Below, piece by piece: positions 40,421 to 42,270 of a DNA stretch of 47,702 bases. The notes beneath the pieces were generated by a model. It did not search any database. It saw nothing but the letters and a program-made list of their open reading frames with translations, and was not told where the DNA came from. Position 1 is the stretch's first letter; every line of letters starts with the position of its first letter. The stretch is taken from positions 1-47,702 of the forward strand of contig DATFVB010000222.1 in NCBI GenBank assembly GCA_035260525.1, written 5' to 3'. Position numbers and translations under genes: made by a program. Source of the DNA: Thermoanaerobaculia bacterium. Lineage in GTDB: Bacteria > Acidobacteriota > Thermoanaerobaculia > UBA5066 > DATFVB01.

Positions 40421-41020
40421 CTACCTGAGAGTCAGGTCGCCCGCTCCGACATGCGCCCGCAGCCGATACTTCCCGCTCCCTTCCTTGTGGAACGAGCGGA
40501 ACAGACCGTCTTTCGATTCGCCGAAGGGCTGGCCGTTGAGGTCTCCGGTATTGACGGAGGCATCGACGTGGCCGTAATCGGCCGGATTTCCCACGTCGAT
40601 CGTGAGATCGCCGGCGTGCACCGCGACGTCCTTGTCTCCTTCGACGTTCTCCACCGAGACGTCGCCGAACGGAATCCGGGCGAAGAGATTCGTTCGACGG
40701 GGAATCCGGATCGTCGTGACCACTTCGTTGTGGGGCCCGCCGGAAATGCGCAGTACCGCGTCCCCGTGCTTTTCGGTCAGGCGGACCCGGACCTCCCGCG
40801 CGCGCTCCGCGTTCCGGCCGGAGAGCTCGACCGATATCCGATCTTCGTTGGTGCCGACGATGCGAACGTCTCCCGAACGCACCCGCAGGCGCAGGCGGCC
40901 GCCGGAGGCGAAACCGGCGGAGAACGGGTGGTCCACGATGTTCGCGGCCTCGATCGCCGGATCGGCGAACCCGGCCGCGGCGAGCAGGACGGCGCCAAGG
41001 AAAAACACGGCTCGGCGCAT
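40421..41020 (-). CDS. Secreted DUF4097-like beta-helical protein
   Basis: The 199-residue protein starts with a signal peptide (MRRAVFFLGAVLLAAAGFA), with AGGAGG before the ATG. The mature part has short beta repeats typical of DUF4097: LRLRVRSGDVRIVGTNEDRISVELSG, ARIPFGDVSVENVEGDKDVAVHAGDLTIDVG and ASVNTGDLNGQPFGESKDG. These small adhesin-like or envelope proteins have no known enzyme activity. A structured repeat lies 6 bases after the stop. Confidence 0.82.
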   Translation of the reverse strand: MRRAVFFLGAVLLAAAGFADPAIEAANIVDHPFSAGFASGGRLRLRVRSGDVRIVGTNEDRISVELSGRNAERAREVRVRLTEKHGDAVLRISGGPHNEVVTTIRIPRRTNLFARIPFGDVSVENVEGDKDVAVHAGDLTIDVGNPADYGHVDASVNTGDLNGQPFGESKDGLFRSFHKEGSGKYRLRAHVGAGDLTLR

Positions 41021-41069: not shown

Positions 41070-41447
41070 CTACTCCGCGAGCACCCGTTGGACGAAGGAG
41101 ATCGCGATCGATCCTTCCCCGACGGCCGAAGCAACCCGTTTGATCATTTCTCCCGTGAACATCCCGCGCCGAAGGATCGCGATCGGGGAATCGGCGCCGC
41201 TCGCAGGCACGATCTCGATCTCGCCTTCCGTGACGACGAAGAAGCGGGGAGACCGTTCGCCCGGCTCGATGAGCACTTCGCCGGCCTCGACGCGGCGCCG
41301 CCGTCCGCGCGCGGCGAACCGCTCGATTTGCCGCGGCTCGAGCGCGGGGAACATCTGCTCGAAGCGCTCCGCGGGAAGCTTTGCCGTCAGGGGGAGCCGG
41401 TCGTGCGCGTCCAAGACCGCCTTTCGGAAGGCGCGGAAAGAATACAC
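41070..41447 (-). pseudogene. Remnant of a cyclic-nucleotide-domain thioredoxin reductase, interior deleted in frame
   Basis: The first about 95 residues are a cyclic-nucleotide-binding domain: MFPALEPRQIERFAARGRRRRVEAGEVLIEPGE and RFFVVTEGEIEIV through ILRRGMFTGEM. This is the N-terminus of the family of proteins that fuse this domain to a thioredoxin reductase. Instead of the reductase, the frame continues IKRVASAVGEGSIAISFVQRVLAE, which is the typical C-terminal end of thioredoxin reductases. About 400 middle residues with both nucleotide-binding sites are absent. The frame is open, so a 125-residue product could be made, but it cannot be a reductase. The start is a GTG at 41447. Confidence 0.7.
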
Positions 41448-41694
41448 CCCGTCGAGAGAGACGTTCGGAGAAGACTCCAGGTCACGGAGCGGGGCTCGGA
41501 CGCGGATTCGAACGGCCGCCGAGGCCGCGCTCCTCGAAGTAGCGGCGCAGCTTCCTCGTATCCGCTCTTCGAGCGATCAGGACCGGAAATTGGGCCATTC
41601 CGAACCGTCAGCGTGCAAGATCGCGGCCCGAGAGCGCCCCCCTCGCGCAGTTCGAGCTCGGCGTCATAGAATTCGCCGTAAGGAGGGGATCAGC
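41448..41694. other. Gap with a short ArsC/Spx-like frame
   Basis: On the minus strand, 41482-41598 encodes MAQFPVLIARRADTRKLRRYFEERGL before it turns to low-complexity sequence and stops. The first half resembles the start of Spx/ArsC-type proteins (DTRKAxRFF), but the usual cysteine is missing. It may be a remnant; evidence is weak. I see nothing else. Confidence 0.25.
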
Positions 41695-42270
41695 ATGAAT
41701 AGGCTCGTTCTTTTCGGGGCCGCGATCGCGTTCGCGGCGGGCTCGGCGCTTCAGGCGGCCGAGGAAACACCAATGAAACCGATGAAGCCGATGAAGCCGA
41801 TGGCTCACAAGATGGCGGCTTCAGGCGCAAAGATGGCCATGGCGGTGCCCGACGACATGAAGTGGGGCGACGTTCCCCCGGTGTTCTCGCCGGGCGCCAA
41901 GCTCGCGGTCCTCGAAGGGAATCCGTTCGGGAGCGGCTACTACACGGTCGCGCTCAAGATGCCGGACGGCTACAAGGTCATGCCGCACTGGCACCCGGCG
42001 ACCGAGCGCGTGACGGTGATCTCGGGCGACTTCCACGCGGGAATGGGCGACAAGATGGACGAGGCCGGCGCGAAGGATTTCCCGCCGGGAAGCTTCATCT
42101 CGATCCCGCCCCACATGCACCACTATGCCTTCGCGAAAGGCGAGACGGTCGTTCAGGTCAGCGGCCCCGCCCCGTTCAAGCTCATTTACGTCAACCCCGC
42201 GGACGATCCGAGCGGGATGCAGGGAAAGAAGCCGATGGGGAAGAAACCAATGGCGAAGCCCGCAGCGTAA
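41695..42270 (+). CDS. Secreted cupin with Lys/Met/Pro-rich ends
   Basis: The 191-residue protein has AAGGAGGGG before the ATG and a signal peptide (MNRLVLFGAAIAFAAGSALQA). A run of MKP repeats follows (residues about 24-35). The cupin motifs are MPHWHPATERVTVISGDFHAGMGD and IPPHMHHYAFAKGETVVQVSGPAPF, with three likely metal-binding histidines. The C-terminus again has KKPMGKKPMAKPAA. The core is a ChrR-like small cupin. The Met/Lys tails could bind copper or the cell surface; that is speculation. A good terminator hairpin follows at 42290. Confidence 0.88.
   Translation: MNRLVLFGAAIAFAAGSALQAAEETPMKPMKPMKPMAHKMAASGAKMAMAVPDDMKWGDVPPVFSPGAKLAVLEGNPFGSGYYTVALKMPDGYKVMPHWHPATERVTVISGDFHAGMGDKMDEAGAKDFPPGSFISIPPHMHHYAFAKGETVVQVSGPAPFKLIYVNPADDPSGMQGKKPMGKKPMAKPAA

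Follow-up and report, generated by a model that had tools for sequence, protein, structure and literature searches.

A 125-codon frame in a Thermoanaerobaculia genome as the probable remnant of a gene for a cyclic-nucleotide-binding domain fused to a pyridine-nucleotide oxidoreductase

The short minus-strand frame listed first in Table 1 is most probably (we put the probability at roughly 0.84) a recent remnant of a gene that fused a cyclic-nucleotide-binding domain (CNBD) to a pyridine-nucleotide oxidoreductase, representing ordinary gene loss in progress within the window, by which we mean the whole stretch of 47,702 nucleotides analysed here. One deletion of ~1.34 kb, a multiple of three by chance, would have left the frame open while taking out the sensor's second half, the middle region and almost all of the flavoprotein. 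Since neither a complete sensor nor a catalytic fold is left, gene loss is the best reading, and the gene is predicted to be effectively null. From stop to stop, the frame extends over 168 codons, reaching 41576. The start used by the family may be a TTG at 41414 instead of the GTG at 41447, judging from the N-termini of homologues and an upstream AAAGG run, both read by eye; depending on the start, the product would have 114-125 aa.

Table 1 Features at and around the short frame, with positions in the window.
Feature	Position	Strand	Description or evidence
Internally deleted gene	41070..41447	minus	125-codon open frame, 125 aa, GTG start, stop codon 41070-41072
N-terminal part, partial cyclic-nucleotide-binding domain to ..FTGEM (residues 25-101)	41145..41375	minus	Homology to the N-terminus of fused proteins
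Deletion joint, codon 101 ATG / codon 102 ATC (..FTGEM / IKRV..)	41144..41145	minus	Alignment with relatives
C-terminal reductase tail, residue 102 onward, the last 24 residues IKRVASAVGEGSIAISFVQRVLAE and stop codon	41070..41144	minus	Protein and DNA matches, alignment
Probable remnant of an FAD monooxygenase gene, 26 C-terminal codons	41512..41589	minus	Intact in G001; tblastn 16/26 identical
Flanking gene, DUF4097-like	40421..41020	minus	PF13349 21.7 bits, below cut-off 22.9; counterpart in G001
Flanking cupin-domain gene	41696..42270	plus	Counterpart in G001

The main evidence comes from intact relatives. Both halves of the stub map to one 629-codon frame of a genome of the same order (G007; L067:2499-4385), in pieces ~1.34 kb apart, with residues 26-101 matching at 47% identity (E 5.4e-15) and residues 101-125 at 76% (E 2.1e-4); at the DNA level, the tail matches at 89% over 55 bases (E 6.6e-13). 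Another relative, G037, holds both halves within one 561-codon frame of the same layout as G007, and in G055 they stand in the same arrangement, yet in two frames (425 and 343 codons). Such a two-piece match of the stub to single relatives' genes is far beyond chance. The preliminary description had read the frame as the start of a CNBD joined in frame to the C-terminus of a reductase, and the single genes of G007 and G037 that match both halves bear this out.

Intact homologues measure ~570 residues, with both ends in one frame. As had been proposed, the frame was aligned with full-length homologues, in this case 17 intact relatives with frames of >480 codons containing both motifs (the start of L057 is cut off, and L044 changes frame near the C-terminus). 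In this alignment the window frame halts after FTGEM and picks up again at IKRV, ending in the C-terminal KRVASAVGEG tail; between these points, 438-448 residues present in the relatives are missing, the count being 446 in 10 of the 17 comparisons. Because intact relatives carry both ends around this gap, the single in-frame internal deletion suggested from the frame itself is upheld.

Profile searches show how much was lost. The PF00027 match in the stub covers residues 50-101 (E 1.8e-8) and profile positions 1-54 of 89 only, and a Pfam profile search for PF07992 in the window frame gave no match up to E 1. Both of the intact proteins that were scanned carry PF00027 over profile positions 2-89 of 89 together with Pyr_redox_2 (PF07992); in the G007 protein a glutaredoxin domain lies between CNBD and flavoprotein (25.3 bits, cut-off 22.9), and the second protein does not pass the glutaredoxin cut-off. 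The G007 homologue is thus like the stub in its N part and C-terminal 25 residues and unlike it in being full length, with PF00027, Glutaredoxin and Pyr_redox_2. The stub accordingly has neither the complete PF00027 domain that the CNBD/thioredoxin-reductase-like fusion family requires nor its FAD/NADPH-binding flavoprotein; it does have what marks an internally deleted pseudogene, namely intact homologues with both ends and a lost functional core. Homology of the N part to listed fused-family genes (39-48% identity) supports the earlier assignment of an N-terminal cyclic-nucleotide domain up to FTGEM, except that this domain is incomplete.

According to the alignment, the lost stretch starts at LSGRR of most relatives. 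This stretch, which follows FTGE, we take to be the phosphate-binding segment, by reference to the CAP and PKA folds. With the phosphate-binding segment and both binding folds gone, any product made is predicted to be unable to bind cyclic nucleotide, FAD or NADPH. Decay, one of two options that had been put forward, is supported by this domain loss and by the intact full-length relatives. The other option, a small free-standing sensor, called for a complete barrel with the phosphate-binding cassette; it is not supported, given the truncated CNBD, in which the stretch after FTGE is absent, a joint that recurs neither among the listed matches nor in the examined loci, and the lack of the gene at this place in the same-genus genome G001.

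A described protein of this architecture is ATII-TrxR from the Red Sea Atlantis II pool brine metagenome, which, in its published domain description, combines an N-terminal PF00027 domain with a C-terminal, FAD/NAD(P)-binding PF07992 flavoprotein (PMC6544261). Likened on the basis of that domain description, the stub has in common with ATII-TrxR the beginning of the CNBD and the extreme C-terminus of the flavoprotein; it is without the remaining half of the CNBD, the middle region and the sites for FAD and NADPH.

By eye, members of the fused family read ..GVYYGAT.. or similar at the position of SACATC in the genome's own canonical thioredoxin reductase (L060). From these motifs, the usual CxxC seems absent from the fused family and the name 'thioredoxin reductase' may mislead; with a GVYYGAT-type motif in place of SACATC, it is a loose label. 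The preliminary description, which had assigned the tail to a thioredoxin reductase, therefore stands as to the match with a reductase, and only loosely as to the name. A short form with a tail unlike thioredoxin reductases, the finding that would have spoken against that assignment, did not appear.

How long ago the deletion happened can be gauged from the residues that remain. Among retained columns at least 90% conserved in intact relatives, 26 of 27 are unchanged in the stub, and its mean identity to the relatives makes it an outlier neither in the N part (43.4%, intact members 38.0-49.7) nor in the C part (78.8%, intact members 60.3-83.0). In the 25-codon tail, differences from G007 number 3 at first, 3 at second and 12 at third codon positions. 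On the strength of the conserved columns and these codon differences, the deletion looks young, and most of the divergence of the tail appears to predate the loss. The 48-codon N-part stretch, with 19, 12 and 21 differences, shows a far weaker third-position excess, which counts against gene loss, as do the open frame and the good conservation of the retained residues. Selection on a short product would produce the same conservation pattern as a young deletion, and the data fit both.

The open frame, the conserved residues and a G+C content that looks coding-like (0.71, 0.48 and 0.83 at the three codon positions) would also fit a functional small protein, such as a half-CNBD cap pairing with other CNBD proteins or a reductase. 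We nevertheless regard it as very unlikely, given that the CNBD ends before the phosphate-binding segment and that the joint recurs in no other short frame among the listed matches or the examined loci. A single-sequence AlphaFold2 model of the stub was poor (mean pLDDT 43.0, pTM 0.33), although a single-sequence run without a control says little.

The search for short forms covered several overlapping sets of genomes. At class level, 148 genomes were returned and 12 had a match at E 1e-9, with at most 24 candidates scored per genome; at phylum level, 15 of 396 genomes matched at the same threshold, with part of each genome's candidates scored, mostly 11 (both counts include the genome of the window itself). 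Three more classes, with 38, 162 and 41 genomes, gave 1, 9 and 8 genomes with a match at E 1e-7. As scoring covered part of the candidates, matches may be missed. We classified 33 other fused-family genes, defined as those matching a full-length member, with duplicate loci counted once and L039 and G138 set aside: 27 are full length, in one frame that covers 537 or more of the 569 query positions, another 4 are divided between frames, and the remaining 2 are cut short by a contig end. The divided genes are L011/L078 (G040), L013/L071 (G055), L048/L075 (G121) and L099 (G599); either decay or sequencing error may have broken them. L039, from Dormiibacterota, is itself a full-length fused gene, and G138 matched in the CNBD only, at 26% identity. 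Further CNBD matches, many of them with E values from 1e-7 to 1e-3, were assigned to other kinds of CNBD protein, and those in examined loci were included in the scan for the tail. A scan of genome contigs gave five loci, four of them with the CNBD part only and the fifth being L039.

Across all examined loci, a frame of <300 codons holds the tail motif in three cases only, namely the window, G364 and the frameshifted G121 gene, and the joint of the window appears in no other short frame among the listed matches of the class, phylum and further-class searches. The G364 short form (L095:5539-5901), from elsewhere in the phylum, spans 121 codons between stops and has its joint at RTIERG/FVKTG. 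It resembles the window frame in that a gene of this family has lost an internal part in frame and kept both ends. It differs in what is left, namely no more of the CNBD than its beginning and a tail of ~70 residues, and a Pfam search at E 0.001 gave no match. Since its joint differs from that of the window on both sides, it represents an independent event. This second short form can be read both ways: it lends some support to a functional small protein and, by making short forms less than unique, counts against gene loss, and as another internal deletion of the same family it also speaks for gene loss. That it keeps less of the sensor domain and has another joint argues against a common small-sensor design.

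The joint itself offers few hints of how the DNA was cut. With the 17 relatives standing in for the ancestor, the best stretch shared between the inferred breakpoints is 1-5 bases long, without a clear repeat. A repeat-mediated deletion was rejected on these grounds; the probable mechanism would be illegitimate recombination with no clear repeat involved. The same observation bears on another idea, namely that the population carries an intact gene and the short form arose by misassembly or belongs to a minority strain. The genome is fragmented (368 contigs), which leaves room for such an error, yet no long repeat that could mislead an assembler is inferred at the joint, and the flanking genes are collinear with G001.

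Moreover, the intact G007 protein finds seven places in the genome of the window. Besides the stub, these are the response-regulator fusion (C357), the canonical thioredoxin reductase (C335), CNBD matches on C75 and C182, and C193 and C225, the weakest flavoprotein matches, neither of which matches a second intact member at E 0.001. As nothing but the stub, CNBD proteins and paralogues turned up, a misassembly or strain variant appears unlikely, and a translocated middle of the gene was rejected. The presence of other reductases, the response-regulator fusion and the canonical enzyme, favours gene loss. On C357 (L068:3638-6723), the response-regulator/reductase fusion adjoins a frame with a CNBD-like N-terminus and, as read by eye, histidine-kinase-like sequence; these two could possibly have acted together with the lost fusion or serve in its place.

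In G001, the only same-genus genome compared, contig C165 carries both flanking genes in the order and orientation of the window, at DNA identities of 74% (DUF4097-like gene) and 87% (cupin gene). The spacer between the flanking matches is about 255 bases long in G001 vs 641 in the window; the stub is not among the blastn matches listed for this spacer, and it has no match in the G001 genome at E 1e-6. Either G001 lost the gene entirely or the lineage of the window gained it there, and this one genome fits either case; that the gene may never have been present at this place in G001 counts against gene loss. The search for the intact gene in sister genomes, which the preliminary description had suggested, thus succeeded in the relatives G007 and G037, and the same-genus G001 is without the gene at this place.

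Next to the stub lies what is probably the end of an FAD monooxygenase gene. At 41511-41555, 37 of 45 bases are identical, with a score of 50 that none of 500 base shuffles reached (highest 38), and the G001 monooxygenase protein has no match in the genome of the window at E 1e-5. The intact G001 gene (L066:1323-2885) lies on the opposite side of the cupin gene, so that the order differs. This suggests other gene loss or rearrangement in the neighbourhood of 41512-41589, and the monooxygenase tail points to other gene erosion at the spot. An adjacent pair of monooxygenase and reductase was considered and dropped, as no examined locus with a fused reductase matched the monooxygenase at E 0.001.

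It is a highly speculative thought that the family repeatedly yields short in-frame forms keeping both ends, as in the window and G364, some of them expressed as mini-proteins with a modulating effect on cyclic-nucleotide or redox proteins, or else representing reversible strain variants. Under gene loss, the reading we prefer, the stub calls for caution in annotation, as a Pfam-led pipeline would label it a small cyclic-nucleotide-binding protein although its ligand site is incomplete. It also illustrates clearly what an in-frame loss allele looks like, and G001 shows the gene-free state at the same place.
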